The notes below the pieces were generated by a model. The model saw nothing but the letters and a program-made list of their open reading frames with translations. It searched no databases and had not been told where the DNA came from. A stretch of DNA of 64,000 nucleotides from Roseibium suaedae (lineage in GTDB: Bacteria > Pseudomonadota > Alphaproteobacteria > Rhizobiales > Stappiaceae). The DNA is taken from contig NZ_FRBW01000008.1 in assembly GCF_900142725.1 (NCBI RefSeq), positions 1 through 64,000 on the forward strand, written 5' to 3'. Of this stretch, positions 19,833 through 37,076 are shown one piece after another (the stretch's first letter is position 1; each line of letters starts with the position of its first letter). Both the position numbers and the translations under genes were made by a program.

Positions 19833-20030
19833 TTGCGCCAATCGCCATGCGCCGCTCTGAAGTACATTTTCGTCGATTTCAGGCGTATCGATGTTTCCAA
19901 CACCCACCTTTTCCGAGCCACTTTGACGGCCGATAAAGAAGGTATCACCATCCCAGATACGCAAGGTTTCTGGCTCACAGACAGAGGTGTATAGAAGGAC
20001 GGCGACGACGATATGAGCAGGCAATGAATT
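19833..20030 (-). pseudogene. Truncated thermonuclease-like (SNase) gene
   Basis: A leftward frame just after virD4 reads as the beginning of a small secreted thermonuclease: a hydrophobic start (AHIVVAVLLYTSVC), then ETLRIWDGDTFFIG and VGNIDTPEI, which match the staphylococcal-nuclease-type motif with its DGDT and DTPE residues. The frame stops at 19830, before most of the catalytic domain, and no clear continuation is seen in other frames. Thermonuclease-family genes are common beside alphaproteobacterial transfer genes. It is probably a decayed remnant; the exact borders are uncertain. Confidence 0.5.
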
Positions 20031-21933
20031 AGACCTTAGCCAGATTTTCTCTTCGAACATCGCAAATCTGGCTAAGCAGACTATTTTGTTTGCTCAACAG
20101 CTCGTCCGCTTGTTCTTCAGACAAATCCTGAACCGTTTGCGGAAGAGATTTGAGACGCTTTGCCTTGGTCCTGGATGCATCGTCCGGGCTCGAACCATCG
20201 CCTGCAACAGACCTACTTTCTAAACCCTCTACTCTAGGATTCGATGCCACTATCACCACGGGCGGCTCCGGCAAAGGGCCGGTCTGTCCTTCGAAGAGCT
20301 TCTTCAGCTCCCGGTCTTTATAATAGATGACCTTCTTGGCGCGAACCGCGTCATGTCCTTGAATCAACAAGACCACTTCATCGTCGCTAAGACGGCGCAA
20401 ATCCTCCGGACGCAAAAGACGTGTGCCTTCCTGTCGCTCAGAAATGCTGGTGCCGCTGAACTTGTTCATTTGCCACGATTTTGAACGGCTTTTGCGCGTG
20501 AAATCACCGATCGACTTCGACACATATTCAGGTGTCTCCGCGTCGGCCGGAGCCATGAACAATTGCAAGCGGCAGTTCGCCAAGAAGTTTTGCGCGCCAT
20601 CGTTGCCATAGGCGGCTTTCAGGTTGGAAATCGACTGCGCGACGATCATCATGCGGCCGCCATAGGACCGAAGCGTCGTGATCCCCTGGCTCAAGGTGTC
20701 CATTTTGCCAAGCGCCGGAAACTCGTCCATCAACAGCAAGACCGGATAAGGCTCGTCTTTGCCCGGTTCCGATCTCTGCAATATCGAAACCGTTTGCTGG
20801 AACATCATCCGGATCAAGGGCGACAGCACTTGCAAGTCGTTCGGGCCAACCACAATGAAGATGCTCGCCGGCCGGCGCCGCAGCTCGGCAATAGAAAAGT
20901 CGCTGGCCTCGGTTGCCCGTCTCACATGGTATTCCGCCCACTGGCCCAGACCGCCATCGAATAGGACAGACATATAGGCAGAAACCGTCTTGTAGTCAGT
21001 TCCGGCCATCCGGTTGTAAATCGCCTTGGCCTCCTCAATGGCCGTCTCGCTCGCCAGCTGCTTGAACAAGGCCGCGAAATCGGCTTCGCCCTCTCCATCG
21101 CTGCGTTTGCCTTGGGACAAGAGGTCATAAACGGTGCCGAGGTTCGCAGAGTTGCGCTCGATCGCGACGAGGATGGTTGCAACAAGGATCTGTTTGGCGG
21201 ACGGCATGAAGCCTTGGGCGTTGTTCCCAGGAAGGAATAGGAGCGATTCCGCAATCCGCTGCGCCTCTGCGTAGCGACGTCTCTCCGGCAGCGCGGCAAC
21301 ATCCTCCAGCGGGTTATAGCGGTGCGTCCGGTCTTCTTCATCAAACGGCGCGAACTTGTAGATCACATCGCCAAGCTCCTTGCGGTGGCGGCTCGTTTTC
21401 TCGAAGTTCTCACCCTTCACATCGAGGCAAATCACGCTGCCCGGATAGGTCAGTAACGTGGGAATGACAACGCCAACGCCCTTACCGGATCCGGTCGGCG
21501 CCGCGATAAACGAGTGCGGAATATCCTGGCAGGAAATAAACTTGCCGCGGCCTTTTGGCAGAGAGGTCTTCGCATAAATCGGCCCGCCTACGGATTTGAC
21601 GGTGGCGAGAAGCTTATTCCGCTGCAGGTCCTGGACGCTGGCCCACTTTGCAGAGCCATGGCTGTTCATCGATGGCCGGACACCAAGAGCAACCGCGCCA
21701 ATGCCTCCAAGCAGCGCTGCGGCACCACACACATAAAGGGCATGTGTCCAATACGCCGGATGGCGGAAACCACCCCACGGGCTGACCTTGAAGGCATCGA
21801 GCAGTTCAAACTGGCTGAGCGGAGTGCCAAGCCGCCAGTCCACATAGGCCCCTGCCAAAAGAAAGCCGATCACCCCGCCCAGAACCAGGCCGAACAACGC
21901 GAAGAAAACTCCGTCTTTGACCGCCTTGCTCAC
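20029..21933 (-). CDS. virD4: Type IV coupling protein VirD4/TraG
   Basis: Conjugative coupling ATPase of 634 residues that docks the relaxosome to a type IV secretion channel. Two N-terminal membrane segments (residues about 9-30 and 62-85) are followed by HGSAKWAS, the Walker A motif APTGSGKGVG (about 145-154) and the Walker B motif VLLLMDEFPALG. The C-terminal tail is acidic and variable. It starts in a 4-base ATGA overlap with the relaxase gene. No virB channel genes lie in the window, so they must be elsewhere on the replicon or be supplied by another element. Confidence 0.94.
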   Translation of the reverse strand: MSKAVKDGVFFALFGLVLGGVIGFLLAGAYVDWRLGTPLSQFELLDAFKVSPWGGFRHPAYWTHALYVCGAAALLGGIGAVALGVRPSMNSHGSAKWASVQDLQRNKLLATVKSVGGPIYAKTSLPKGRGKFISCQDIPHSFIAAPTGSGKGVGVVIPTLLTYPGSVICLDVKGENFEKTSRHRKELGDVIYKFAPFDEEDRTHRYNPLEDVAALPERRRYAEAQRIAESLLFLPGNNAQGFMPSAKQILVATILVAIERNSANLGTVYDLLSQGKRSDGEGEADFAALFKQLASETAIEEAKAIYNRMAGTDYKTVSAYMSVLFDGGLGQWAEYHVRRATEASDFSIAELRRRPASIFIVVGPNDLQVLSPLIRMMFQQTVSILQRSEPGKDEPYPVLLLMDEFPALGKMDTLSQGITTLRSYGGRMMIVAQSISNLKAAYGNDGAQNFLANCRLQLFMAPADAETPEYVSKSIGDFTRKSRSKSWQMNKFSGTSISERQEGTRLLRPEDLRRLSDDEVVLLIQGHDAVRAKKVIYYKDRELKKLFEGQTGPLPEPPVVIVASNPRVEGLESRSVAGDGSSPDDASRTKAKRLKSLPQTVQDLSEEQADELLSKQNSLLSQICDVRRENLAKV

Positions 21934-23849
21934 CGCCCATGGTCCTCGTCCCTGCGCGGCCGGCGTTTTGCACCTTCAGCCCTCTTCGCCCGCTCGGTCT
22001 GCTGGTCGCGGTCCAGCTTGCCGAGGGCGAGCTCAATCTTGCCGTTGCGCGCTCCTTCGGCATCGGCCAGTTCGGTTTCCAGGTATCTTCGAGCCAACAG
22101 GGATTGCTGGTCCGGATCCTGGGTCAAGCTCGACAGGGCTTGCCTGTCGCCATTTTCGAGCTCGCGGAGCCTCAAACTTGTCAGTGTCTCTTTCACGGTC
22201 TGCGCGAACCGGTCATTCACGTCGTCATCCGTGCCGAGGCTGGAAACGAGCCGCGCCTTTCGGCCTTCATAGGCTTCAATGTCCCGCCGCGCTGAGCTGT
22301 AGATGCCGCGGATCTCCGCGTGCACCGTCTCAAGCGTTGTTCCTGCCTTGGCCTGGCTGGCATTGGCATCCAGGCCCTCTGTCTGCTGATAGTAGGCCGA
22401 GAGCTGCTGCAGTTCGGCTTGCTTCCAGCCTTCAGCAACGGCCCGGGCAACTGGCTCGTCGCCGCCGTAACGCTCCACGATGATCTCAGGCGGCAAGCCG
22501 GCCTTGCGCGACAGATCCAGGACCAGGCCCTTTGCCTTCCCGGAAATCTCATCTGTGAAGTCGTCATAGGAAGTCACGCCCTGATAGGCTTTGTCCGCAG
22601 CCGGACGCCTGAAGCCCTGCAGCTCCGCAGCATCCGCCATGAACTGGGCCGCCTCTGTCTTGGTCCTGGCCGCGAGCCGTTCGAACCGTGTCCTGTCCGG
22701 ACCTTCCGGAAGTGAGGAAAGCTCGGCATCGATCTTCTTGAAGTTGCTCAAGATCGCGGCCCGCCGCGCATCGATGGCTGCATTCATTTCGCGGATCTCC
22801 TTGATCGTGACGATATTGGCCGGCACAAGCTCACCGTAGAATTTGTGGCCGCTGTCAAACGTCCGTTTCAGCCCCGCCTGATGAGCGGGGCCGGCCGCCT
22901 TGAGCTGCCGCCCTTCCTCAATCAGCTGAGCCGCCTGACGCAAAAGCAGGCTGTAGTTCGGGTGCTCGCCTTTGATAAAGCCCGCTTCGCCCCGGACCTG
23001 GCGGACGAACAAGGTCTTTGCCAACGAGGCCCTCAAGCGGGATACGGCGTCATGAGCGCGGGTCTGCGGAGAACGCTCTTCACGCCGGGCACGCTGCACC
23101 TCGCAATCGGTGTAGGGTCTCTCCTCGATGCCCCGAGCAAATCGCGGCGTTGCCTCGAGCTCAATTCCGTGATCTGCCGCAACCCGGACCTGGACGAACC
23201 GCATCTCGTCATAATCGAAATGCCCGCGCGGCGACACTTTCAGCCATGACCCTTCCTCAAGCCCGCGCCGGTTCACAACGATATGCATGTGAGGATGCGC
23301 CCGATCCGTGTGAAACGCTGTGAAATAGTCGAAGTGATCGCCATATTTTCCGCTGGCGAACATCTCCTCGGCCCAAGCCCGGCCAGTGCGGTAAGCCGCA
23401 CTATGGTCAGTGCCTTCCGGAAAGCTGACCATGAAGTGACTGGTCCGGTCGGCCTTACCGTCGCCGGCGTCTGCAAGCTGCCAGGAGGTCATCATTTCAG
23501 CCTCGGCCGCCTGGTCGACGACAAAGCCGAAATACCGGTCTGAGCGCTCAAGCTCGACGCTGCCCTCTTTGCGAAGGTAATCCATCTGATCGCGAATGCC
23601 GCGCAAATCGGACGTGCCGCCCGTTCGAATGAGCTTCGCCATGGCCTGGGGCTTTCGAGCCAAAAAGGCCGTTGTCATCCGGTCGGTCCAGCTGCTCGAA
23701 CCGGATCCTCCGCCACCACCGCCGGCGATCTTCTTCTCCAGATCCAGGACATACTGGATCATCGGTCCACTCATCGATGCCGGAATTTTCAGGATGCCCC
23801 AATCCTCGCCCATCACCGCTTCGAGCGGATCGGCAACCTTGCTAACCAT
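21930..23849 (-). CDS. virD2: VirD2-type relaxase
   Basis: Relaxase of 639 residues that nicks oriT and stays bound to the 5' end. The catalytic domain lies after a 60-residue extension with a glycine run. The likely nucleophile is Tyr91 in QMDYLRKEGSVELERSDRY. Motif II-like sequence HFMVSFPEGTD is followed by the metal-binding motif FHTDRAHPHMHIVVNRRG with His180, His185, His187, His189 and Asp182. This order and spacing match Agrobacterium VirD2, including ARGIEERPYT downstream. The long C-terminal part is helical and charged and unlike VirD2. It overlaps virD1 by 8 bases and virD4 by 4. Confidence 0.94.
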   Translation of the reverse strand: MVSKVADPLEAVMGEDWGILKIPASMSGPMIQYVLDLEKKIAGGGGGGSGSSSWTDRMTTAFLARKPQAMAKLIRTGGTSDLRGIRDQMDYLRKEGSVELERSDRYFGFVVDQAAEAEMMTSWQLADAGDGKADRTSHFMVSFPEGTDHSAAYRTGRAWAEEMFASGKYGDHFDYFTAFHTDRAHPHMHIVVNRRGLEEGSWLKVSPRGHFDYDEMRFVQVRVAADHGIELEATPRFARGIEERPYTDCEVQRARREERSPQTRAHDAVSRLRASLAKTLFVRQVRGEAGFIKGEHPNYSLLLRQAAQLIEEGRQLKAAGPAHQAGLKRTFDSGHKFYGELVPANIVTIKEIREMNAAIDARRAAILSNFKKIDAELSSLPEGPDRTRFERLAARTKTEAAQFMADAAELQGFRRPAADKAYQGVTSYDDFTDEISGKAKGLVLDLSRKAGLPPEIIVERYGGDEPVARAVAEGWKQAELQQLSAYYQQTEGLDANASQAKAGTTLETVHAEIRGIYSSARRDIEAYEGRKARLVSSLGTDDDVNDRFAQTVKETLTSLRLRELENGDRQALSSLTQDPDQQSLLARRYLETELADAEGARNGKIELALGKLDRDQQTERAKRAEGAKRRPRRDEDHGR

Positions 23850-24291
23850 TGCCGAGCGCCTTCTCTAAAAGGGCCTTCGCAGCGGCCTTCCGCTTTCTCA
23901 CGTTGAGAAGAATTTGGACCTGCGCCTCGACCTTCGCGAAGAGCCCGCCAAGCCCTTTGCGATCTTCCATGAAGGCAATGAAGTCAGGTTCACCCGTTTT
24001 GTTCGCCTGTTTCGCGAGCTGATTTATGTTCGTCGCGATCCCGGAGACCTGCCGCGTGAGATTGCGCAAGACGTCCGTGGTCTCTTTGTCGTAGTCTAGG
24101 AAGCCATTCGCTTTCAGGACCAGCGTGCGCAAAACCCGGTTCCTTTTGACACCCAGCTCGGCGCAAAGCGCATCCAACTCGGCGGCTTCGGACACTCTCA
24201 TGCGGACGCTGAACACGGTCCAGACATCGTCCGGAGAGCCTGAATCCCTTTCGTCTACCCTCTGATTTTTGGTGTCGGTTCGGCAGCTCAT
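23842..24291 (-). CDS. virD1: VirD1/MobC-like relaxosome accessory protein
   Basis: A 149-residue DNA-binding accessory protein of the relaxase. The segment from VFSVRMRVSEAAELDALC through LRTLVLKANGFLDYD and IATNINQLAKQAN aligns by eye with the central region of Agrobacterium VirD1, including the helix pattern of MobC-type ribbon-helix-helix proteins. The start MSCRTD at 24291 was chosen because upstream sequence is proline-rich and non-conserved and would run into the oriT region. It is the first gene of the leftward virD1-virD2-virD4 operon, about 90 bases from the inverted repeat at the nic site. Confidence 0.85.
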   Translation of the reverse strand: MSCRTDTKNQRVDERDSGSPDDVWTVFSVRMRVSEAAELDALCAELGVKRNRVLRTLVLKANGFLDYDKETTDVLRNLTRQVSGIATNINQLAKQANKTGEPDFIAFMEDRKGLGGLFAKVEAQVQILLNVRKRKAAAKALLEKALGNG

Positions 24292-24383
24292 TGCGGCTTC
24301 GGATTTGGCTTTTCTTTGCTCGCCCCATGGGCGTTTCTGGGGCGCTGGTGGGGGTACGTGGCGGGGGTGCGGAGCGCCCAAGC

Positions 24384-24414
24384 GCAAATGTGTTACATTT
24401 GCAATATCCTGCCA
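24384..24414 (+). other. oriT: Candidate oriT: inverted repeat plus nic site
   Basis: A perfect 7-bp inverted repeat (GCAAATG at 24384-24390, CATTTGC at 24396-24402, 5-base loop) is followed at once by AATATCCTGCCA. The core TATCCTGC (24405-24412) fits the known IncP/VirD2 nick-region consensus YATCCTG|Y, with predicted cleavage on the + strand between 24411 and 24412. It also matches the CAATATATCCTGYCA end of T-DNA borders with one dinucleotide missing. Hairpin followed by nic is the standard layout for this relaxase class. It lies in the virD1-virC1 spacer, as expected. Cleavage here would send virC1 and virC2 first and virD1-D4 last. Confidence 0.8.
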
Positions 24415-24494
24415 CGCACCCTACCGAGGCACTTAAGGCAGATCAACCACTTTAGATTGCTATTAAGGATATTAACAACCTCATTCATCCAACC

Positions 24495-24766
24495 CCGCTG
24501 AAGCTTTGAAGTTCGGAAAATTGGACGTGATGAGACGCGGAAATTTGTGATTGAGGAGGTTCTGAAATCCGGAGGTTTGTAAATTTGCGAGAGCGGGTTT
24601 TCTGGAATGCCTGACTACGGGAATGCGTGATTTTGGATGTCTGGAAATTCGGACTTCTGGATCTCTGATCTTTTGGAATTTTGGAATTTTGGAATTTTGG
24701 AACTCCGAAACGCGGATCGCCTGAAACGTGCAACTTTGGATTGACGGAGATTCGGGAATGCAGGAA
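24495..24766. repeat. 34-unit degenerate 8-bp repeat array
   Basis: The sequence divides without a single insertion or deletion into 34 consecutive 8-base units of pattern NNNNKGAA. Examples are GCTTTGAA, GTTCGGAA, ATCCGGAG, GTCTGGAA and TTCTGGAT. Four perfect TTTTGGAA copies lie at 24671-24702. Units diverge strongly in the first four positions, while Gs near positions 5-6 and A at position 7 persist. The array sits between the nic site and virC1. Agrobacterium VirC1/VirC2 bind the short overdrive enhancer next to a T-DNA border, so this may be the matching enhancer here (inference). Confidence 0.75.
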
Positions 24767-24826
24767 GAAGGTTGCATTGCAAGAAATTGCAACCGTCCCT
24801 ACCAACCCGACGACAGGCTTCATTCC

Positions 24827-25537
24827 GTGAAAATCATTTCCTTCGTTTCTTTCAAAGGCGGTGCTGGCAAGACAACCGCTCTGATGGCCGTCACGTCGTG
24901 TCTCATCGAACGCGGTAAAAAGGTCGCGCTGTTCGAAGCCGACAACAACAAGCCGATTTCCGAGTGGCGCGAGAATGCGGTCAGCAAGAACACGTGGCAT
25001 TACAACTGCCTCGTGTTCCTTGCCAACAATGAGGCGGACTTTGAAGCCGCATATGAAAAGGCCTTGGCCGCAGGCTGCGATTTTGCCCTGATCGATACCC
25101 AGGGAGGCGGATCGGAGCTCAACAACATGGTGCTGGTCAACTCCGATGCGATCATTTTGCCAACCGCGCTGACGGTCCTCGACACGGACGAAACGCTGCA
25201 AACCTTTAGCTATGCGGTCAAGGTCGCGATGGCAGCTGAAATCAACGTCCCGACAGTCGTGCTGAAAACCAGAATTCCAACCGCGAAGCTCACCCAGGCG
25301 CAAAAGCGGACGAATGAGTTGCTCGCGGGCCTGCCCTGCCTGGCAACGGGCCTGCACAGCCGCAATGCCTTCGAGGACATGAAATTCAAAGGCCTGCTCC
25401 ATCTGGCCATGCGCCAGATGGAAGAAAATCCAAACGACAGGCTCATTGCCCGAAACTATCAGTCCGCAATCGAAGAGGCAGACGCTCTGACGAGCGGCGT
25501 TCTTTCTCTGGTTAAGGACCAGGCGGATGCGGCTTAG
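24827..25537 (+). CDS. virC1: VirC1-like ParA-family ATPase
   Basis: ParA/MinD-type ATPase, 236 residues, close to the 231 of Agrobacterium VirC1. It has a deviant Walker A FKGGAGKTTALM near residue 10, ALFEADNNKPISEWRENA, the Walker B region FALIDTQGGGSELNN and DETLQTFSYAVKV; this order matches VirC1 rather than plasmid-partition ParA. VirC1 binds overdrive and brings the relaxosome to the cell pole. GTG at 24827 is preferred: AGG lies 9 bases upstream and VirC1 starts at this point. An upstream ATG at 24728 would put the 8-bp array inside the protein. It overlaps virC2 by 11 bases. Confidence 0.9.
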   Translation: MKIISFVSFKGGAGKTTALMAVTSCLIERGKKVALFEADNNKPISEWRENAVSKNTWHYNCLVFLANNEADFEAAYEKALAAGCDFALIDTQGGGSELNNMVLVNSDAIILPTALTVLDTDETLQTFSYAVKVAMAAEINVPTVVLKTRIPTAKLTQAQKRTNELLAGLPCLATGLHSRNAFEDMKFKGLLHLAMRQMEENPNDRLIARNYQSAIEEADALTSGVLSLVKDQADAA

Positions 25538-26105
25538 AAAATCGCCTGTCTCCTATCAGGAGTTCGTTGAGACAGGAGAAGTGCGCAAAAAGGAAAGCGT
25601 CGCGGCACCTGTCGAACAAGCTGCAGCGTCCTTGGCCGGGAATCCAAAACCGGATCACGCGGGCCAGGCAACGGCCGCGCCCACGATCCCTGACATGGGA
25701 CAGGAAAAGCAAAAGCGCCGCGCTAAACTACCGGCGAAGCCGCATCGCAGGAAGAAACCGGGGATCCTCGTCACGGTCGATGTCCCGCTCCCTGCGGCAG
25801 GCGTATCAGCCACATTCGACGCTTTGTCCCGGACCTATTCTGGAAAGAGGGCCCTTGCCCTCATTTTGCGGAAGGCCATGCCGAAATTAGAACGGCACCT
25901 TCTGGAAGGAAAATCCAAATCCGCGCCACGAGACTATCCTGTCCAGCCCGGCGATTTGAAAACAACGCGGACAATGCCGGAGGATGCCTATCAGCTCGCG
26001 AAGGTCCAATTCGATCCCCTCGACATGCTGCCGAACAGACAGTTCGGCCGCATCGTCGCATTGGCCGCCCTCGCAGCCTTTTTCAAAAATGAGAAAAGCG
26101 GATAA
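25527..26105 (+). CDS. virC2: VirC2-like ribbon-helix-helix DNA-binding protein
   Basis: A 192-residue protein with a disordered, charged first half and a conserved second half. The stretch from VSATFDALSRTYSGKRALAL through APRDYPV and KVQFDPLDMLPNRQFG to ALAAFFKNEKSG follows Agrobacterium VirC2 almost block for block (from memory of that protein: VSKTYDNLVRQYS, APKSYPI, SHFDPLGL, ASFFAGEK). VirC2 is a ribbon-helix-helix protein that helps VirC1 stimulate transfer. It overlaps virC1 by 11 bases and runs divergently from the virD genes, the same arrangement as on Ti plasmids. Confidence 0.87.
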   Translation: MRLRKSPVSYQEFVETGEVRKKESVAAPVEQAAASLAGNPKPDHAGQATAAPTIPDMGQEKQKRRAKLPAKPHRRKKPGILVTVDVPLPAAGVSATFDALSRTYSGKRALALILRKAMPKLERHLLEGKSKSAPRDYPVQPGDLKTTRTMPEDAYQLAKVQFDPLDMLPNRQFGRIVALAALAAFFKNEKSG

Positions 26106-26235: not shown

Positions 26236-26556
26236 TCAAAGCTCCCAAGCACTGATCCTGCCTGCCAGTCGCGTCATAAGGTCCATGCGCTCATGAAAAA
26301 TCGCCACGATCAATGCGGGCGCGCGCTCGCGAGGCAGGCAAAAAACAAAGTGATGTTCGCAACGTGACATCCGCAATGCAGGAAAAAGTTCGCTCAGGTC
26401 CTTAAAAGAGCCTTGTGCGGCGGCTAAACGGCCAATCCCCTGTTCCAACTTGGCGATATAGAGGCGGACCTGTGTAGAGCTCCACTGCTTGCGTGTGTAG
26501 CGGATAATGCCGCGCAGATCGGCTTCTGCCTCTGTCGTGAGGATGTAGGCTGTCAA
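26236..26556 (-). CDS. RelE/ParE-family toxin
   Basis: Small 106-residue toxin of the ParE/RelE fold: YILTTEAEADLRGIIRYTRKQW at the start, a helix LYIAKLEQGIGRLA, and the C-terminal strand pair HHFVFCLPRERAPALIVAIFHE with DLMTRLAGRI. ParE toxins poison gyrase; RelE toxins cut mRNA. The sequence looks closer to ParE. It starts in a 4-base overlap with the upstream antitoxin and converges with virC2. The pair probably stabilises the replicon. Confidence 0.85.
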   Translation of the reverse strand: MTAYILTTEAEADLRGIIRYTRKQWSSTQVRLYIAKLEQGIGRLAAAQGSFKDLSELFPALRMSRCEHHFVFCLPRERAPALIVAIFHERMDLMTRLAGRISAWEL

Positions 26557-26804
26557 GCACTATCCCCGGCGAGTTCTTCATCCAGGATGTCGCCGATACT
26601 TTTGATGGACACCTTCCCCCCAAGGCCATCGTTGATGCGATCTCCGAGCAAGGTTTTCAGTTCCTGCCAAGCCTGATCGGCATCAGCATCGCCGGGGAAC
26701 AAGCGTTCCAGAGCATACTGCTTGATGGTCTTGCCCTGTAAGGCGGCCAAAGCCTTCAGACTTTGATGCTGCTGGTCCGTTATGTCGATTGTAAGGCGGC
26801 TCAT
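26553..26804 (-). CDS. ParD-like antitoxin
   Basis: An 83-residue partner of the toxin. The N-terminus SRLTIDITDQQHQSLKALAA is a ribbon-helix-helix DNA-binding strand-helix, followed by GKTIKQYALERLF, and the C-terminal half ends in SIGDILDEELAGDS, which would wrap the toxin. The ATG at 26804 was chosen because upstream residues are hydrophobic and unlike the family. It overlaps the toxin gene by 4 bases and probably represses its own operon. Confidence 0.82.
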   Translation of the reverse strand: MSRLTIDITDQQHQSLKALAALQGKTIKQYALERLFPGDADADQAWQELKTLLGDRINDGLGGKVSIKSIGDILDEELAGDSA

Positions 26805-27772
26805 GAGGCACACTCCAAAAACTACACAAACCCACATTAGCACATATGTTGGAAAGCTGCTACAGATAGGCCAGTGCAAGCGGCCCGCCTTTCCCACAGT
26901 CCTACGGCTTCTCTTCGGCGCTTAATGGGGAGCGCATTCAGCCTCCGGACTGATCCGCCACCTTTCTCACGAAAGATGGCTCCGGCCCTGACGGGCTGGA
27001 AAAGGCTACTCAAGAAAGTGCGGACATTTCTGCCGTTTGCTACCGATGTTCACATGTCTGCTAAGGAGCCAGGAGCGGACTGGCGGCTCTTGGGCTTTCC
27101 CTTGCCTAAGCAGATACTCGTCTGGAAAATTTCTGCGGCAGCTTTCGGCACGGAGCTGCCGTACGTCGTGGTCTCAATCAATGGCGGATTCGCGCCCCAT
27201 CCCAGTCGTTCGGACTGAAATGTTGCAGCCTGGAAGCCGACAAATCCGCAAGCTTTGGATCGACGTGGGTGTGCCCCCCAAAACGACCCTTAGATCAATT
27301 TTGCGATATTCTTAAAGTTGCTGTTAATTCACGCGCCTCGTGAGCTGTCGGCATTGGCCGACCTCAGCGATGCATTGGTTAACTACTCGGGACGCCCGAC
27401 CGCGCCAGAATATCCTGCCGGAAGTATTCAGGGCAACAATCGAGCCGCTGCAGTTGGCCAGCCGGAAACTGGTGTGGTTTTCGTCGATCTCTACTTAAAC
27501 GCGCGGTCATAAGTTTGCATCACCGCCGCCGACACAATTCCGAGACCTGCAACCGAATATCTGGGCGCGGATTAGCAGGAAATATCGCCTTGCGCTAACC
27601 CACATCAGCATGCGCCGACACCACTGCAGCTATGTTGTGAAACAGCTTCAAGGATAGGTGTTTCCGTCAAACCGGCATCATGCAGTACCCCGGAAGACAT
27701 TTCTTATCATTGCAGACAATCACGGGCGGGACTGAACTCAACCCTGCGTTCCAGTTCCCCTGAGGAGGTCCC
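26805..27772. other. Gene-poor stretch between TA pair and stress cluster
   Basis: About 970 bases in which no frame shows a convincing start, ribosome-binding site and protein-like composition together. Frames on the + strand at 26874-27218 and 27318-27512 are open but look random. Several small GC hairpins are present near 26980 and 27120. It is probably decayed sequence at the right border of the mobilisation module. Confidence 0.5.
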
Positions 27773-28475: not shown

Positions 28476-31400
28476 ATGACCGTTGGGTTTTCCGGTTGGT
28501 CGCCGCTGCGACGGGCAAGCAGAGCTCCTTGGAGCGATATCAATCCTGTACGTGCGGAGATGTTCGGGGTCGAACGTCTGGAACAGCATGCGACCAGTCT
28601 GGCAGAACGCCAAGACGTCACCCTTAAGCCACCGCGTGTCGTGTCATTGCAGCGGCGGCTGGAAGAAAATGCAATTGCCTTGTCGGCCACCCGCAAGGCC
28701 TGCAATCTTGAACTTGCAGCCGGTCATCCGATCGAGCCTGCGGCACAGTGGTTTCTCGATAACTATCACCAGGTCGTGGCGCAAATCGGCGAAAGCCGTA
28801 CCGATCTGCCAGCCAGTTACTACCGAACGCTGCCAAAGCTGGCAGATGGCGCGTTTCGGGGCTATCCACGAGTTTTCGGTCTTGTCTGGGCCTATGTCGC
28901 TCATACCGACAGTCACCTCGACGCCGCGGTGCTCTCCCGGTTTATCCGCGCCTATCAGCAAGTACAGCCCCTGACCATCGGTGAACTCTGGGCGGTTCCG
29001 ATCACTCTACGCCTCGTTTTGCTGGAAAATCTCCGGCGCCTCTCCGATCAGATCGGCATGGGTCGCAAAAGACGCCATGAGGCCGACCAGCTTGCAGACC
29101 GGATTCTCGGCGCGGGGACCAAGCAGTCCCTCCCGTTAGCCTACTTAGAAGCTGGCCTAAACGGGCGCATGTCCGAAGTCTTTGCAGCTCAGCTGGCCAA
29201 GCGGCTTCGAGATTGCGATCCGCTCATCACTCCGGCTATCGGCTGGCTTGAGGAGCGTTTGGCGGTACAGGGCAGTGATATTGATCTTGTTGTGCACCAC
29301 GCACAGGAACGTCAGGGCGCCTCCAACGTCTCGGTGCGCAACGTCATCACGAGCCTGCGTACAATTTCCGAGATGGACTGGCCGGATTTGTTCGAGGGCG
29401 TCAGCCTCGTTGATGCGAAGTTGCGGGAACACGCAGGGTTTGCCGCGATGGATTTCGCCAGCCGCAATCTCTACAGAACGGCCGTCGAGGATCTTGCCCG
29501 GCACTGTGATCACAGCGAAATCGAGGTGGCAGGGTTGGCGATCGAGGCCGCGGGCAGAGTGTCGGGGATCGCCGCAACGTCCCTGTACGACCCGCAATCT
29601 CAGCGCCGAAGCGATCCCGGCTGGCACCTGTTCGCAGAAGGGCGGATAGCCTTTGAGCGCCAGATCGGTTTTCGGCGAGACTGGTCGCACTGGCATCATT
29701 TTCACCCCGGTCTTTCGGGCTATGCCGGTAGCATCTTTTGCGTCACCCTTGGCTTGCTTGTGCTTGGCCTGTGGGCCGCTGCAGGTCTCGCCAACGCTCC
29801 CGTGTCCATGTTGTTTCTGGCCCTGTTGGCTCTCGCCGCCCTGATTCCTGCCAGTACCGTCGCGCAAATTCTGATCGATCGTCTGATCGGCTGGACTGTG
29901 CCCTCTACGGCGTTGCCGGGGTTGGCGCTTGAAGACGGTATTCCCGCCTCGCTGCGCACCTTAGTCGTTGTGCCGACCCTCCTGACAAATGTCAGCGATA
30001 TGCGCGAGCAGATCGAAGGACTGGAAGTTCATTATCTGTCAGGCACAAACGGCGATGTCTCCTTCGCGCTTCTCACCGATGGCGTGGACGCTCCTCGCCA
30101 GAACATGCCGGGCGATGCGGCACTTGTGACACTGATCGACAAGGATATTGCCAGGCTGAACCAGCTCTATGGGTCGGCCCCATTGGGCGTGCGTTTTTTG
30201 CATCTGCATCGCCAGCGCCGGTATAATCCGGTTGAAAAACTCTGGATGGGATGGGAGCGCAAGCGAGGCAAACTGCAGGAACTGAACCGCCTCCTGCGTG
30301 GTGACACAAACACCGACTACCGTACACCTGATGGCGGCACCCCATTCGTCCCTTCTGACGTTCGGTATGTATTGACGCTGGATTCCGATACGCTGATGCC
30401 ACGCGACACGGTGCGGCGGCTGATCGGAAAGATGGCACACCCGCTAAACCGTCCCGTTATCGACCCCGCCTTGCGCCGGGTACGTGCAGGTCACGCGATA
30501 TTGCAACCTCGCGTCACTCCTGCCCTGCCGGCTGCGCGCAGCGGTACGGCCTTTCAATATGCCACATCCGGGCCAGGCGGCATGGACCCCTATGCCACTG
30601 CCGCGTCAGACATCTATCAGGATCTCTTCGGTGAAGGGTGCTTCACCGGCAAGGGCATTTACGATCTTGATGCATTCGAGACGGTGATGGCCGGGCGTGT
30701 CCCTGAAAACGCGTTGCTGAGTCATGATTTGCTGGAAGGGATTTTTGCCCGCGCCGGGCTTGCCTCCGACGTCGAGCTCGTTGAATCCTTTCCTGAGCGG
30801 CAGGACCTTGCCGCACGCCGCATCCATCGCTGGTGCCGGGGCGATTGGCAGCTTCTACCCTGGCTCGGAAGGCGAGGTGGGTTGGGTGCACTTGGGCGGT
30901 TCAAGGTGCTGGACACGCTGCGGCGCTCGCTCCTGGCTCCCGCGACCCTGGGGATGCTGACAATGGGCTGGCTGCTACCGGGCATGGCTGCCGTTCTGGT
31001 GACCGCTCTGGTCTTGGCGGTCCTGATGCTGCCGTCGTTTCTGCATGCGGCGGTTTCAGCAGTGCCGCACCGCGCCGGACTGCATCTTCAGACGCATCTG
31101 CGTCTGATGCGCGAAGATCTGGCGCTGGCCTTGCTTCAGACAGGGCTTGCGACAGCTTTTCTTGCCGATGCCAGCTGGCGTTCGCTCGACGCCATCACAC
31201 GTACGCTGTGGCGGCTGCTGGTCTCCCGGCGGCACTTGCTGCAATGGACCACCGCGGCCTCTCTCGCCGCAGCACCGCGCCCGGATCTGGGCGGCTACGC
31301 GCGAGCCATGGCTCCTGGCACCACACTGGGGCTGGCCCTGGCCGGGTTGGTCGCCATGGCCGCCCCGGCTTCGCTGCCGCTGATCCTGCCATTCGCCGGG

Positions 31401-34400
31401 CTCTGGCTTGCTGCGCCCTACATTGCCTTTCGCGTGAGCCAGGTTCCCAAGCCCCGGTCCGAAGCGACGCTGACACCACAGGACGCACAGGCCCTGCGTC
31501 AGATCGCCCGCCGGACCTGGCGCTATTTCGAGACATTCGTCACCGCGGAAGACAGCCATTTGCCGCCAGACAATTTTCAGGAAAATCCCCACCCTTCCAT
31601 TGCTCACCGCACCTCTCCCACCAATATCGGGCTCTATCTTCTGGCAACGGTAGCAGCGTGCGACTTCGGCTGGATCAGCCGTAAACAGGCCGCCGGGCGG
31701 ATCTCCGCGACCCTTGGTTCTATAGAAACATTGCCGCGTCTCAATGGACATTTCTACAACTGGTACAACACTCAGGATGGCCGGGTTCTCGCCCCTCCCT
31801 ATATCTCCTCGGTGGACAGCGGAAATCTGGCCGGACATCTGATCGCGCTGGCCAACGCGTGTGAAGAGTGGGCGGAAGCCACCGCCCCCGATCTGCAACG
31901 CTGTCGCGGCGGTCTCGCCGATCTGCTGGATCTGATGGAGATCGACGTGGTCCAGGCCGGCGTGGCGCCGGATCCTTGCTTCCTTGCCACGATGCGATCA
32001 CTACGCGATAGCCTGGCACAGGCCGAAATCGACTGGCCCGCCTTGCAACGCCTCGTCGCCGAAGCAGAAAACTCGCCCTGGGCCAGCAGCCTGCCAGATG
32101 CAAGCGCACGATCCTGGCTGTCACTGTTGCGCGACAGTCTAAACGAACTGGCTACAGACGCGGTTGGGTGTGGCATCGACCGCGCCGACCTCGCCGGGCA
32201 TCTGCGACAGCTCGGCGAAACCGCACGCAGACTGGCGATGGAGATGGATTTCGCCTTTCTGCTGAACCCGGAGCGCAAACTGCTCTCGATCGGCTATTCG
32301 GTGCACGAAAACGCGCTCGACCCGGCCTGCTACGACCTGCTGGCGTCCGAAGCCCGGCTGGCGAGCCTGTTAGCCGTTGCCAAACAAGATGTCCCTCTGC
32401 GTCATTGGTTCCGGCTGGGCCGTGCCTCGACTGCGGTTCGTGGCGGAACAGCGCTTGTTTCATGGGCCGGATCGATGTTCGAATACTTGATGCCCGAATT
32501 GGTGATGCGCGAACCCGAAGGCGGTCAACTTGGCTACACCTGCCGGTTGGCAGTCACACACCAGATCGCCTATGGTGAGGCTCAAGGCGTTCCTTGGGGG
32601 ATCTCCGAATCCGGCTTCAATGCGCGGGATGTGGAATTCACCTATCAATATTCCCCCTTCGGCGTACCTGGACTTGGGCTGAAACGCGGCCTTGCCGGCG
32701 ATCTTGTGATCGCGCCCTATGCCACCGGTCTTGCCGCGATGCTCGATCCTGCCGCCGCGCGGCGGAATTACGACGCGCTCGAAGAGGCGGGGGGGCTTGG
32801 CGCCTATGGTTTCTATGAAGCGCTGGATTTTACTCCCAGCCGGGTGCTTCCGGGCCAACGTGTGTCTGTTGTGCAAAGCTATATGGCTCATCATCAGGGT
32901 ATGACCATCGCGGCCATTGCCAACGCGCTGACGGACGGACAAATACGCGCGCGATTCCATCGCGAACCGATGATCCATGCCAGCGAACTGCTGCTGCAGG
33001 AACGATTGCCGCGCGACATCGCCCGCACACTTCCCACTCTCGAAGAGCCCACGGTGACACCCGCTGTCCCTCCGGGTGTAGAGCGTGGACGCCGGATCTC
33101 CGGTTGTCCGAGCGGTCCGCCCATCAGCCATCTGATGTCGAACGGGCACTACGCCGTCATGCTGACCGCAAACGGCGGTGGTTATAGCCGGTGGGGTGAC
33201 ATTGCCCTGACCCGCTGGCGCGAGGATACGACGCGCGACCATCAAGGCGCTTTGCTGCACCTGCGGGATATTTCGAACGGAACAGAGCTGAGCTTTGGCC
33301 CCTGTGAGCAAGGGATGGCAAAGACCCAGCAGGATGTTCAGTTTTTCGAAGATCACACGACCTTCACGGCCCAAACAGGGCGACTTGACACGGTGCTCGA
33401 CATCCTTGTCTCAGGTGAGGCCGATGCCGAGGTGCGCCGCCTGTCTATCACCAATTCGGGGCGCAGTGTTTGCGATCTGGATGTAACATCCTATGTCGAA
33501 CTGACGCTGGCAGCCCCCACCTCTGAAGCAGCTCATCCTACTTTCTCACGGATGTTCGTGCAGACCGACTTCCTGCCCGAATATGGTGCGTTGATTGCAT
33601 GGCGCCGCCGCCGCAACCCGGACGAGCCGGAGATTTGGGCCGCACAGTTCATGAGCATCGAGGGCGAGACAATCGCGCCCTTGCAATATGACAGCGACCG
33701 AGCCACGGCGCTCGGCCGCGACCAGGAACAGGCTCGCCCCCGCGCCACAACTCACCCCGGCCCACTGGCAGGCCGCACCGGAACCGTGCTCGATCCAGTG
33801 TTCGCCTTGCGCAACCGGTTGCGCGTCGCGCCGGGGGATACAGCACGTTTGATGATCTGGATGGTTGCCGCAGATAGCCGGGAGGCGCTGATCGACCTGA
33901 TCGATCGTCATCATGACAGTAACGCCTATGATCGTGCTCGAACGCTGGCATGGACCCAGGCCCAGGTGCAATTGCGTCATCTCGGCATTTCGCCGGATGA
34001 AGCCGCAAATTTCCAGCGCCTCGCGGCGCCGATCCTTTATCACGATGCCAGGTTCCGGCCACCCGCCGCTGTCTTGGCAAAGGGAGCCGGGCGGCAGTCA
34101 GGGCTGTGGCCACTGGCAATTTCGGGGGATCTGCCTATCGTGCTGCTGCGCATCGACGATCCGGCAGACATCGGACAGGTCCGCGCGTTGCTACAAGCTC
34201 ACGAATACTGGCTTGGCAAACAACTGTCCGTGGACCTTGTTATTCTCAACGAAAACCCTGCCTCCTATGTGAAGGACCTGCAGGCGGCGATAGACACTGC
34301 CCTGCGCAGCAGCCACTCCAGGCCACGTAGCGGCGAACAGCGTGTGCGGGGAGCGGTGTACGCACTTCGCTCCGATCTGGTCGCACCGGAGGCCCGCGCG

Positions 34401-37076
34401 CAGCTTCTGGCGGCCGCACGGGTGGTTCTTTTGGCACGTCGCGGCAAAATTGGTGATCAGCTTGTCATGGTGCTGAAGGATCCTGACCTTTTCCTTGCCG
34501 AAGAGAGATTAGCAGACATTCCTCCGGAACCGGCCGGGTACACCACTTCGAGGACAACCGACAAGTCCGCAGCTCCCGATCGTCAAGAAGATCTTCTGGC
34601 CGCTGGTGAAAATCTGGAATTCTTCAACGGCACCGGCGGTTTTGACCAGGATGGGCGGGAATACGTAATCCTGCTCGGCCCGAACGACACGACCCCCGCT
34701 CCCTGGATCAACGTTATTGCCAATCCCGGTTTCGGTTTCCAGGTATCGGCGAGCGGAAGCGGGTTTACGTGGGCCGAAAACAGCCGGGACAACCAACTGA
34801 CACCCTGGTCCAACGATGCCGTGGCAGATCCGGCGGGTGAGGCCTTTTATATCCGAGACGACGACAGCGGCGCGCTGATCTCGCCGACCATCCATCCGTT
34901 GCGCAAGACATGGAATGGGTTCGGAGAAGAGACCGGGCCGTATATCGTGCGGCATGGGTTCGGTTACAGCAAATTCGAACATCAGGCGGACGGTATTGCC
35001 TGTGACCTGGTGCAATTCGTGCCGCGCGAAGATCCGGTGCGGGTCTCGGTGCTGCGTCTGAAAAATACCGGCGAGAAGCCGCGCCATCTGAGCGTTGCCG
35101 CCTATAGCGAACCGGTGATGGGAGTGTCGCGTGCCGCCTCTGCACCTTTTCTTGTAAGTTCACGTGACAGCGCGACCGGAGCCCTGTTGGTATGCAATCC
35201 CTGGAACACCACTTTTCCAGGCCGTGTCATGTTCACCGGCCTCTACGGCCCAGGGGCGGGCGTTGAAAGCTGGACAGGCGATCGGACGGAGTTTCTAGGA
35301 TCGGGGGGGAGCGCAGCCGCCCCCGCAGCGATGCACAGCCAGCCAATTCTTTCGGGCCGGCTAGGGGCCGGGTTCGACCCCTGCCTGGCGCAAATGAAGG
35401 CCGTTGTGCTTGCCCCGGGCGAAAGCGTCGAGCTTTTGCATTTACTCGGCCAATGCACCGATACAGCGACAGTTGGTGCATTGGTCCGGCGCCTTCGCTC
35501 CTCAGATCCGCTCAAGATGCTGGCGGACGTTCAAAAATATTGGACCGAAACTCTGGGCGCTCTTCAGATCGAGACACCTGATCGGGCGATGGACATCATG
35601 GTCAACGGCTGGCTGCCCTATCAGACCCTCGCTTGCCGGATCGAAGCACGCGCGGCCTTCTATCAGGCAAGCGGTGCCTATGGTTTCCGTGACCAGTTGC
35701 AGGACAACATGGCCCTCACTTTGACCCGGCCCAGGCAGACCCGTGCCCACTTGCTGCGTGCTGCCGCCCGTCAGTTTCCCGAGGGCGACGTGCAACATTG
35801 GTGGTTGCCTCATTCAGGACAGGGCGTGCGCACGCGCATCTCCGACGATTGCGTCTGGCTCGGTCACGCGGTGGCCGCCTATGTGGCGAGCACGGGTGAC
35901 ACAGCTGTGCTTGACGAACGTGTTCCATTCCTGGAGGGGCATCGCCTTTGCGATGGCGAGCACGATGCCTTCTTCCTGCCCGACGATGCCGACGATGATG
36001 CCTCGCTTTTTACGCACTGTGTGCTCGGGCTGGATCGCGCCCTGACACTGACCAGCCCTTTTGGCCTGCCGCTGATCGGCACCGGCGACTGGAACGACGG
36101 CATGAATCGCGTCGGTGCCGGTGGCCGCGGTGAAAGCATCTGGTTAGGCTGGCTTCTGCTGCAAACGCTGAACGCTTTTATTCCGCTGGCCGAGCCGCGC
36201 GACACTGCAATAGCGCAACGCTGGCGCACCAGGGCCGAAACCTTGCGCCAGTCCATGGAGACCAATGGATGGGACGGAGACTGGTATCGCCGGGCGACTT
36301 TCGATGATGGCACCTGGCTCGGTACCGCGTCTGCTCGCACCTGCCGTATCGACGCGATCGTGCAAAGCTGGGCAGTCCTGTCTGGACAGGCGGATCCCGC
36401 GCGCGCAACGCGAGCGATGGAAGCCTTCGACCGCCTTCTTGTAAACCGCGACGATGGCCTTTCGTTGCTGTTTACGCCACCATTCGGAGCGGACCTCATG
36501 CCTGAGGATAACGATCCGGGATATATTGCCGCCTACCCGCCGGGCCTGCGCGAGAACGGTGGACAATACAGCCATGCCGCTATGTGGGCGATCCTCGCCT
36601 GGGCGAGGCTGGGACGCGGCGATCGTGCCGCTGAGCTCTTCTCTCTGGTTAATCCCATCAATCACACGCGAACTGAGGCTGCCGCGCAGCTTTACAAGAC
36701 GGAGCCTTATGCCGTCGCCGCCGACGTCTATTCCGTTGCACCGCATATCGGCCGCGGCGGTTGGAGCTGGTACACAGGCTCAGCCGCCTGGATGCACCGC
36801 GCAGCGATCGAGGGGATCCTCGGCATTACCCGTGAGGGCAACCGCCTGCGCGTGGCACCCAACATCCCGGCGGACTGGCCAGGTTTTTCGGCTCGTCTGA
36901 AAGTTGCGGATACCTTGTGCGAAATTCGGGTCGTCCACACCGAAGACGCTATGGCGCGGCTTGACGGGCTGGTGATCACCGCCGCGGGGCCGGAGGTCTT
37001 CATGCCGCTCGATGGTGTGCCTCACGATCTGGTGCTTGGCCTCAGTCATGTCGAGCCAAAGACACCTGCCGTGTGA
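28476..37076 (+). CDS. Cyclic beta-1,2-glucan synthase-like protein (NdvB/ChvB type)
   Basis: Giant inner-membrane glucan synthase, 2866 residues; ChvB and NdvB are about 2830. Membrane segments lie near residues 415-470, 818-855 and 947-980. The glycosyltransferase part shows TLDSDTLMPRDTV (about 633) and a QXXRW-like HRWCRGDWQLLPW. A glucoamylase-like part follows (GISESGFNARDVEFTYQYS). The last 500 residues form a GH94 phosphorylase domain with TGDWNDGMNRVG (about 2535, catalytic Asp), RENGGQYSHAA and GGWSWYTGSAAWMHR. The product would be a periplasmic cyclic glucan important for osmotic and surface fitness. The start has GGAGG 6 bases upstream. An extra-chromosomal copy beside stress genes is notable. 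Confidence 0.9.
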   Translation: MTVGFSGWSPLRRASRAPWSDINPVRAEMFGVERLEQHATSLAERQDVTLKPPRVVSLQRRLEENAIALSATRKACNLELAAGHPIEPAAQWFLDNYHQVVAQIGESRTDLPASYYRTLPKLADGAFRGYPRVFGLVWAYVAHTDSHLDAAVLSRFIRAYQQVQPLTIGELWAVPITLRLVLLENLRRLSDQIGMGRKRRHEADQLADRILGAGTKQSLPLAYLEAGLNGRMSEVFAAQLAKRLRDCDPLITPAIGWLEERLAVQGSDIDLVVHHAQERQGASNVSVRNVITSLRTISEMDWPDLFEGVSLVDAKLREHAGFAAMDFASRNLYRTAVEDLARHCDHSEIEVAGLAIEAAGRVSGIAATSLYDPQSQRRSDPGWHLFAEGRIAFERQIGFRRDWSHWHHFHPGLSGYAGSIFCVTLGLLVLGLWAAAGLANAPVSMLFLALLALAALIPASTVAQILIDRLIGWTVPSTALPGLALEDGIPASLRTLVVVPTLLTNVSDMREQIEGLEVHYLSGTNGDVSFALLTDGVDAPRQNMPGDAALVTLIDKDIARLNQLYGSAPLGVRFLHLHRQRRYNPVEKLWMGWERKRGKLQELNRLLRGDTNTDYRTPDGGTPFVPSDVRYVLTLDSDTLMPRDTVRRLIGKMAHPLNRPVIDPALRRVRAGHAILQPRVTPALPAARSGTAFQYATSGPGGMDPYATAASDIYQDLFGEGCFTGKGIYDLDAFETVMAGRVPENALLSHDLLEGIFARAGLASDVELVESFPERQDLAARRIHRWCRGDWQLLPWLGRRGGLGALGRFKVLDTLRRSLLAPATLGMLTMGWLLPGMAAVLVTALVLAVLMLPSFLHAAVSAVPHRAGLHLQTHLRLMREDLALALLQTGLATAFLADASWRSLDAITRTLWRLLVSRRHLLQWTTAASLAAAPRPDLGGYARAMAPGTTLGLALAGLVAMAAPASLPLILPFAGLWLAAPYIAFRVSQVPKPRSEATLTPQDAQALRQIARRTWRYFETFVTAEDSHLPPDNFQENPHPSIAHRTSPTNIGLYLLATVAACDFGWISRKQAAGRISATLGSIETLPRLNGHFYNWYNTQDGRVLAPPYISSVDSGNLAGHLIALANACEEWAEATAPDLQRCRGGLADLLDLMEIDVVQAGVAPDPCFLATMRSLRDSLAQAEIDWPALQRLVAEAENSPWASSLPDASARSWLSLLRDSLNELATDAVGCGIDRADLAGHLRQLGETARRLAMEMDFAFLLNPERKLLSIGYSVHENALDPACYDLLASEARLASLLAVAKQDVPLRHWFRLGRASTAVRGGTALVSWAGSMFEYLMPELVMREPEGGQLGYTCRLAVTHQIAYGEAQGVPWGISESGFNARDVEFTYQYSPFGVPGLGLKRGLAGDLVIAPYATGLAAMLDPAAARRNYDALEEAGGLGAYGFYEALDFTPSRVLPGQRVSVVQSYMAHHQGMTIAAIANALTDGQIRARFHREPMIHASELLLQERLPRDIARTLPTLEEPTVTPAVPPGVERGRRISGCPSGPPISHLMSNGHYAVMLTANGGGYSRWGDIALTRWREDTTRDHQGALLHLRDISNGTELSFGPCEQGMAKTQQDVQFFEDHTTFTAQTGRLDTVLDILVSGEADAEVRRLSITNSGRSVCDLDVTSYVELTLAAPTSEAAHPTFSRMFVQTDFLPEYGALIAWRRRRNPDEPEIWAAQFMSIEGETIAPLQYDSDRATALGRDQEQARPRATTHPGPLAGRTGTVLDPVFALRNRLRVAPGDTARLMIWMVAADSREALIDLIDRHHDSNAYDRARTLAWTQAQVQLRHLGISPDEAANFQRLAAPILYHDARFRPPAAVLAKGAGRQSGLWPLAISGDLPIVLLRIDDPADIGQVRALLQAHEYWLGKQLSVDLVILNENPASYVKDLQAAIDTALRSSHSRPRSGEQRVRGAVYALRSDLVAPEARAQLLAAARVVLLARRGKIGDQLVMVLKDPDLFLAEERLADIPPEPAGYTTSRTTDKSAAPDRQEDLLAAGENLEFFNGTGGFDQDGREYVILLGPNDTTPAPWINVIANPGFGFQVSASGSGFTWAENSRDNQLTPWSNDAVADPAGEAFYIRDDDSGALISPTIHPLRKTWNGFGEETGPYIVRHGFGYSKFEHQADGIACDLVQFVPREDPVRVSVLRLKNTGEKPRHLSVAAYSEPVMGVSRAASAPFLVSSRDSATGALLVCNPWNTTFPGRVMFTGLYGPGAGVESWTGDRTEFLGSGGSAAAPAAMHSQPILSGRLGAGFDPCLAQMKAVVLAPGESVELLHLLGQCTDTATVGALVRRLRSSDPLKMLADVQKYWTETLGALQIETPDRAMDIMVNGWLPYQTLACRIEARAAFYQASGAYGFRDQLQDNMALTLTRPRQTRAHLLRAAARQFPEGDVQHWWLPHSGQGVRTRISDDCVWLGHAVAAYVASTGDTAVLDERVPFLEGHRLCDGEHDAFFLPDDADDDASLFTHCVLGLDRALTLTSPFGLPLIGTGDWNDGMNRVGAGGRGESIWLGWLLLQTLNAFIPLAEPRDTAIAQRWRTRAETLRQSMETNGWDGDWYRRATFDDGTWLGTASARTCRIDAIVQSWAVLSGQADPARATRAMEAFDRLLVNRDDGLSLLFTPPFGADLMPEDNDPGYIAAYPPGLRENGGQYSHAAMWAILAWARLGRGDRAAELFSLVNPINHTRTEAAAQLYKTEPYAVAADVYSVAPHIGRGGWSWYTGSAAWMHRAAIEGILGITREGNRLRVAPNIPADWPGFSARLKVADTLCEIRVVHTEDAMARLDGLVITAAGPEVFMPLDGVPHDLVLGLSHVEPKTPAV

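Follow-up and report, generated by a model that had tools for sequence, protein, structure and literature searches.

The window (the 64,000-nt stretch of Roseibium suaedae contig NZ_FRBW01000008.1 that was analysed) carries vir-type transfer genes, and between two of them, virD1 and virC1, lies a long array of 8-bp units. Genes on the minus strand encode a VirD4 coupling protein (20029..21933; PF02534, E 6e-107; NF010424 above the cut-off), a VirD2-type relaxase (21930..23849; PF03432, E 7.5e-15; NF010437, E 3.4e-49, under the cut-off) and a VirD1/MobC-like relaxosome protein whose start codon is uncertain (23842..24300; PF07328, E 2.9e-9; NF010432, E 8.7e-26, under the cut-off). On the plus strand, virC1 (24827..25537) encodes a ParA/MinD-type ATPase that matches PF07015 (E 3.3e-81) and NF010423 (273.7 bits, under the curated cut-off of 313) as well as AAA_31 and CbiA in Pfam. 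The downstream virC2 (25527..26105, plus strand) matches PF07181 (E 1e-16) and the solved structure 2rh3 (E 7e-14), which is titled pTiC58 VirC2. The VirC1 and VirC2 identities proposed in a preliminary description of this DNA are thus borne out by Pfam.

A T-border-like nic core, ATATCCTGCC (24404..24413, plus strand; GGCAGGATAT on the minus strand), was read in the sequence 81 bp ahead of the array. It is conserved in three related loci (L037-L039) and is a candidate VirD2 cleavage site. Beside it stands the inverted repeat GCAAATG-TGTTA-CATTTGC (24384..24402, plus strand), which was read in the sequence, is missing from the computed repeat list and probably forms a relaxase hairpin; its arms are kept in L037 and L038, and L039 differs by one arm base. 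Given the established chemistry of VirD2 and RP4, the plus strand would be cut after ATATCCTG, with the nick placed after G24411 and CCA entering the recipient first. On this presumed cut and strand polarity, the array and virC1-virC2 would lie in the leading region. A second inverted repeat, GAAGGTTGCA / TGCAACCGTC (24767..24797), computed between the array and virC1, is a possible operator. A coding reading of the array was set aside: the 305-aa minus-strand open frame that spans it also continues antisense through virC1. Rfam gave no RNA family match in 23800-25000 at the gathering threshold.

Elsewhere on the 105-kb contig there are matches to RepC (64101-64610), a ParB-type protein (65558-65860), a RepA-like ATPase (66331-66906) and a VirB10-type protein (82808-83350), and the contig is therefore taken to be a repABC plasmid that also encodes a type IV secretion system. 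A ParE toxin/ParD antitoxin pair is found downstream of virC2 at 26236-26897. The region 28476-37076 is a single open frame of 2866 aa, an unusual cargo adjoining the transfer region, and presumably resembles cyclic glucan synthases.

The array itself (24495..24766, plus strand) was delimited by autocorrelation, column information and period score as 34 degenerate 8-bp iterons with the consensus.TtcGGAA, of which the K-G-A core given in the preliminary description is a fair rendering. Its place is also as described there: the nic core at 24404-24413, then the array, then virC1 from 24827. Autocorrelation within 24495-24766 was 0.500, 0.504, 0.480 and 0.454 at lags of 8, 16, 24 and 32, and the four-lag mean of 0.484 stands at z 15.1 relative to 2000 dinucleotide shuffles, for which the mean was 0.264 and the sd 0.015. 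The periodicity had been expected to exceed that of shuffled DNA outside the four perfect TTTTGGAA copies, and it does so: after their removal the mean autocorrelation was 0.460 vs 0.259 in shuffled sequence (z 12.8) and the column information was 3.44 bits vs 0.52. With a Dirichlet-multinomial period score, in which phase-locked columns are compared with background, period 8 scored 68.2 and the runner-up among periods 5-14, period 12, scored 6.8. The best ungapped segment comprises 26 units (24500-24707). The original count of 34 units stands, and the statement that they lack insertions and deletions is almost correct, as the gapped fit (24495 to 24765) contains a single 1-bp slip at 24710; a few units, read by eye, also show a one-base wobble of the core. 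Tandem Repeats Finder picked up just two features here, the four perfect copies (24671-24702) and, at 24630-24685, a degenerate period of 24 bp. When the DNA of the same genome was searched with 24400-24830, the sole match was the query region itself.

Relatives were obtained by a contig scan with an alignment of 11 VirC1 proteins, and the best 80 of 86 were kept. Removal of two partial matches (L104, L109) and five other ParA-family proteins (L112-L116, of which L114 is a divergent VirC1-like protein by Pfam) left 73 VirC1 loci. In the 900 bp upstream, many of them carry a period-8 array, with units that are quite different between loci (e.g. TCGAC, CCGGYAA, GCAGCATC and CGGCAA). Period-9 arrays were found in eight loci (L080, L081, L091, L093, L101, L105, L106 and L108), whose records are titled Haematobacter, Roseitranquillus, Jannaschia or Rhodobacteraceae; L105 and L108 come from one isolate and L080 and L081 have identical VirC1. 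There are 65 units in L099 and 61 in L101 (period 9). Maximum scores for periods 8 and 9 were 10.7 and 8.4 in 730 shuffles, and 16.7 and 38.4 in 729 N-free other stretches from the same loci. These 729 remained from 740 control stretches after 11 with N had been set aside; high control scores were traced to N runs in L060, L062 and L083 and were gone in the N-free stretches, and N is absent from all 73 upstream regions.

At cut-offs of 17 and 39 for the two periods, an array was present in 24 of the 29 loci with ATATCCTGY no more than 1000 bp upstream vs 4 of the 44 without it (Fisher p 1.3e-10), and at cut-offs of 30 and 60 in 20/29 vs 4/44. After clustering of VirC1 at 90% identity the figures were 21/24 and 4/23 (p 1.4e-6), and at 80% identity 21/24 and 4/16 (p 1.3e-4). 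The presence of the array in relatives carrying virC1 and virC2, on which the preliminary description had made its reading depend, was thereby found in the 24 nic-core loci, where the array recurs between nic and virC1. Five loci have the nic core and fall below the cut-off: L058 (6.5), L061, L087 (borderline, 15.4), L102 and L103. Nic and virC1-virC2 are kept with little or no array in L058 and also in L163, the plasmid of L010, where an array was expected and the score was 7.3. Conversely, the four array loci without the nic core are L097 (only 348 bp of upstream DNA), L100 (TTATCCTGCC near -511), L041 and L106; ATCCTG was not found within 700 bp in the last two. Among nic-like sites elsewhere in VirC1 loci, 1 of 23 was flagged (L054), with a period-8 score of 14.7 that is under the control maximum. 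Two later, previously unseen loci both have period 8 (L158, 29.7; L160 from Roseobacter denitrificans, 31.9). The other four later loci add no independent cases: the two Phaeobacter loci L161 and L162 (scores 205 and 215) closely resemble L097, L159 (period 9, 73.0) has upstream DNA identical to that of L080, and L163 is the L010 plasmid already mentioned.

The distribution of arrays was compared with a VirC1 tree of 63 rows, made by a quick method with no bootstrap and with the period-8 cut-off lowered to 15; 15 VirC1 loci were left out, mostly near-copies plus L041, L062 and L110 with broken or fused frames, and four later loci were added. One 28-row clade of Ti, Ri and rhizobial sequences holds 26 of the 29 array-less rows, and arrays are spread over most other branches. 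Because of this one clade split, and because only 5 independent pairs differ in the nic trait, too few for power, the association of nic and array is inseparable from descent. The array state is inherited, with three states needing 9 changes vs a shuffled mean of 26.1, and the period is clade-specific, the change between 8 and 9 taking at least 3 steps on the tree. Across 24 period-8 loci, unit similarity correlates with the similarity of VirC1 and of VirC2 (Mantel r 0.51 and 0.50, p 0.0002), values to which the near-identical sets window/L037/L038 and L097/L161/L162 contribute; L041, L062, L040, L046 and L069 were omitted for a broken frame, a VirC2 that was not found or a weak array. As to which protein reads the array, the Mantel test does not discriminate between them (partial r 0.21 for VirC1 and 0.19 for VirC2), and among pairs with less than 50% VirC2 identity the correlation is weak (0.23 and 0.18, respectively). 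The window and L039 share 77% identity in VirC1 and 43% in VirC2 and their arrays are unlike in sequence, as would be expected if the site is read by VirC2, the protein that changes faster. There are counter-cases: L065 and L085 have a unit in common with VirC2 C-terminal parts aligned at 29%, and L094 and L111 have near-identical VirC1 with weakly similar arrays.

The AlphaFold2 model of VirC2 (39 sequences) has a mean pLDDT of 83.5, with the first 70 residues mostly of low confidence. The protein is modelled as strand-helix-helix twice in one chain, i.e. two ribbon-helix-helix (RHH) units. Foldseek with this model placed 2rh3 on top (E 1.9e-11, TM-score 0.89 by target length) and F-plasmid relaxosome chains second, at a non-significant E of 0.21. 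VirC1 is reported to bind overdrive and to enhance nicking (PMC4285021), and also to pair with VirC2, VirD1 and VirD2 and to bind VirD4 (PMC4285021, PMC4949242).

The preliminary description had regarded the array as a candidate long overdrive-like enhancer or docking array for VirC1/VirC2 and had noted that some Ri-plasmid transfer enhancers are likewise short tandem repeats. We examined T-DNA borders for such repeats. Eleven sites, found in 9 of 10 Agrobacterium/Rhizobium genomes, matched the border pattern exactly; when up to two mismatches were allowed there were 40, spread over 10 of 10 genomes, and seven genomes were common to both scans. Ten of the 40 two-mismatch sites are not among the loci obtained; 35 border loci were scanned, four of them off-centre (L124, L137, L143, L153). 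Some Ti/Ri borders do have such repeats: strong, near-perfect period-8 arrays stand at 4 of the 35 loci, all on the non-transferred side. They are AAGTTCAA in two Agrobacterium vitis loci (L123 and L133, 12 and 17 units, one a variant), ATCCGTGC x11 beside the border in Rhizobium sp. L51/94 (L154) and ATTAGTTC in Rhizobium rhizogenes NBRC 13257 (L152, 7 units, one a variant). The copy number of AAGTTCAA is unequal between the two A. vitis strains. A shorter version of the L152 array occurs in L146 (9.2), and L139 (A. tumefaciens B6), the flank of which presumably holds the classical overdrive, has period 8 as its best period, weakly (15.0); the remaining border rows of the 35 showed nothing strong. 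It is quite likely that such Ri-border repeats have been published before, one cited paper being on the pRi8196 stimulator. Among the open-access papers listed, going by titles and abstracts and with key older papers outside the coverage, none was found on such arrays at VirD2-type conjugative oriTs or on a joining of overdrive with partition sites.

Like the T-DNA stimulators, the array of the window adjoins a VirD2-type nic in the presence of VirC1 and VirC2, and 8-bp repeats are shared with some borders. The position beside nic thus agrees with the overdrive-like part of the earlier proposal, but the side of nic and the core sequence do not. With the presumed strand polarity, the window array falls on the transferred side of nic and the border repeats on the non-transferred one. 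Compared by eye, the unit.TtcGGAA does not resemble the overdrive core, either in its classical form or in the form seen beside L139. The array is therefore not an overdrive by sequence or position. The Ti/Ri border repeats are, in addition, short or near-perfect and not upstream of virC1, in contrast to the 34 degenerate units of other sequence in the window. T-border 8-bp repeats and conjugative-oriT arrays resemble two versions of a single element placed to either side of the nick, and they may be homologous.

In architecture the array, with its many contiguous degenerate units ahead of genes for a ParA-type protein and an RHH protein, resembles a type Ib partition site more than it does the short overdrive. 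A ParA ATPase gene (VirC1, PF07015) adjoins the gene of a protein that is RHH by model (VirC2), and 34 contiguous short repeats precede virC1. In parH of TP228, which is degenerate, and in parS of pSM19035, contiguous short units likewise work with a ParA ATPase and a protein of the RHH type (PMC7308502, PMC9499535); on pSM19035 the RHH-ParB protein binds 7-bp units and requires at least 4 contiguous repeats for ParA activation (PMC9499535). Differences from these type Ib sites are that the array is linked to a relaxosome, has period 8 or 9 within its family and is paired with an RHH protein modelled as a single-chain pseudo-dimer. R388 is alike in having repeats near oriT that are bound by StbA, a ParA-like StbB and a link between stability and transfer, but its stbDRs form two sets of five 9-bp repeats with 2-bp spacing, unlike the window array (PMC3098194). 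NAH7 ParB/ParR at oriT differs in that parS is an 18-bp inverted repeat and ParR a KorA homolog.

On balance, the array is probably a parS-like docking site for VirC2 and VirC1 that would promote relaxosome assembly and transfer. Each 8-bp unit (9-bp in some clades) would be the footprint of one VirC2 RHH unit or pseudo-dimer, arranged head to tail, and VirC2 would coat the array by stacking along the units. The ParA-type ATPase VirC1, in its ATP form, would be recruited onto the VirC2 stack, and the VirC complex may then aid the assembly of VirD1 and VirD2 at the adjoining nic and bring the relaxosome to VirD4. In this capacity the array would be to conjugative plasmids what the transfer enhancers (overdrive, and the 8-bp repeats of Ri/Ti plasmids) are to T-DNA, with the layout of a type Ib partition centromere. 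Both the binding of VirC2 and VirC1 to the array and the stimulation of transfer are what we infer from these features. T-DNA transfer is the setting in which VirC1, VirC2 and overdrive are known, but with one short irregular enhancer it is hard to establish the target of the two proteins and the reason for a ParA-type ATPase. With long arrays of clear period and many natural variants, the binding unit, 8- vs 9-bp spacing and the idea of a partition complex recruited to DNA transfer can be tested directly.

A somewhat unlikely alternative is that the array is primarily a partition centromere, with VirC1 as ParA, VirC2 as centromere-binding protein and an effect on transfer that is secondary. 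The order of centromere, parA and RHH gene is that of type Ib loci, and the count of AAA_31 (PF13614) matches leaves room for a partition role. Of five complete plasmids that carry the locus, four have VirC1 as their sole such match, and two of these four are closely related Phaeobacter plasmids; the fifth, a 106-kb Roseobacter plasmid, has another AAA_31 match. The Phaeobacter inhibens plasmid has repC with repA/repB unannotated in an incomplete gene table. But L163, one of the four, is almost devoid of the array, the plasmid of the window carries a RepA-like, a ParB-type and a RepC match of its own at 64-67 kb, the locus is grouped with nic, VirD1, VirD2 and VirD4, and VirC1 has a known role in transfer (PMC4285021, PMC4949242). 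On the five complete plasmids ParB_N had no match on one and a single match on each of four, in 644-674-codon frames away from virC1; a ParM-type partition search on the five was silent, as it was in all control genomes too. The ParB_N matches at G000:C13:52925-53215 and in records W02-W05 lie in frames of 644-694 codons, away from virC1.

Other ParA-family genes also have upstream period-8 arrays, which speaks for partition. Among 25 such loci (20 plus L112-L116, with L017 left out for an N run and no shuffles of their own), arrays scoring 18.7-194 were found in five (L030, L031, L112, L114 and L116), each with a downstream frame of 70-216 aa. The best periods of six others (L012, L014, L020, L024, L025, L029) were 5, 6, 11 or 15 (scores 16-71), and the rest showed nothing clear upstream. 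For the partner protein of L116, Pfam found an RHH match below threshold, and for the partners of L030 and L114 it found none; an RHH nature of these proteins is at best a reading of their sequences. The array upstream of the ParA-family gene in L114 (332-835, Primorskyibacter) has a higher-order repeat, with multi-unit blocks recurring in order. A broader conjecture, which we hold to be possible but short of an even chance, is that VirC1-VirC2 and the array form a complete dual-use partition complex for segregation and relaxosome loading, maybe the sole ParA-type partition system of small marine plasmids. The T-DNA overdrive and the Ri/Ti 8-bp repeats would then be centromere remnants whose position on the non-transferred side would keep them from leaving with the T-DNA.

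The docking-site reading was also weighed against a mainly regulatory one, in which the array is an operator for repression of virC by VirC2 or another RHH protein. The array is directly upstream of virC1, and ParG of TP228 binds centromere and operator alike (PMC7308502); yet 34 units, or 65 in L099 and 61 in L101, are more than an operator needs, the T-border 8-bp arrays are located away from virC1, and a scan for sigma-70-like promoters in 24300-24900 found none, a weak test as 0.3 is expected by chance. We therefore regard this function as unlikely to be the main one. Binding by VirD1 or VirD2 in place of the VirC proteins seems very unlikely: the array adjoins nic and virD1, and RHH accessory proteins often bind near oriT, but the array is on the virC1 side and its unit sequence tracks VirC similarity. 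The known overdrive binder is likewise VirC1 (PMC4285021).

That the array is a functionless decaying microsatellite, as four perfect copies suggestive of recent unit duplication and a pure (TTTTGGAA)n run in a Providencia plasmid might indicate, is scarcely credible and was rejected because the register is held over 26 degenerate units and arrays with other unit sequences recur at the same place in many plasmids. The Providencia plasmid was the top match in a distant search with 24280-24900, and the sole match within the array among the 20 listed of 36 matched plasmid records. This link is treated as coincidence; the run is near recombinase and Tn3-family transposase genes, and the annotation of the 12-kb stretch includes no vir gene. 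The run, in Providencia rettgeri NZ_CP082352.1 (L032:6001-6150), has the same unit as the perfect copies of the window.
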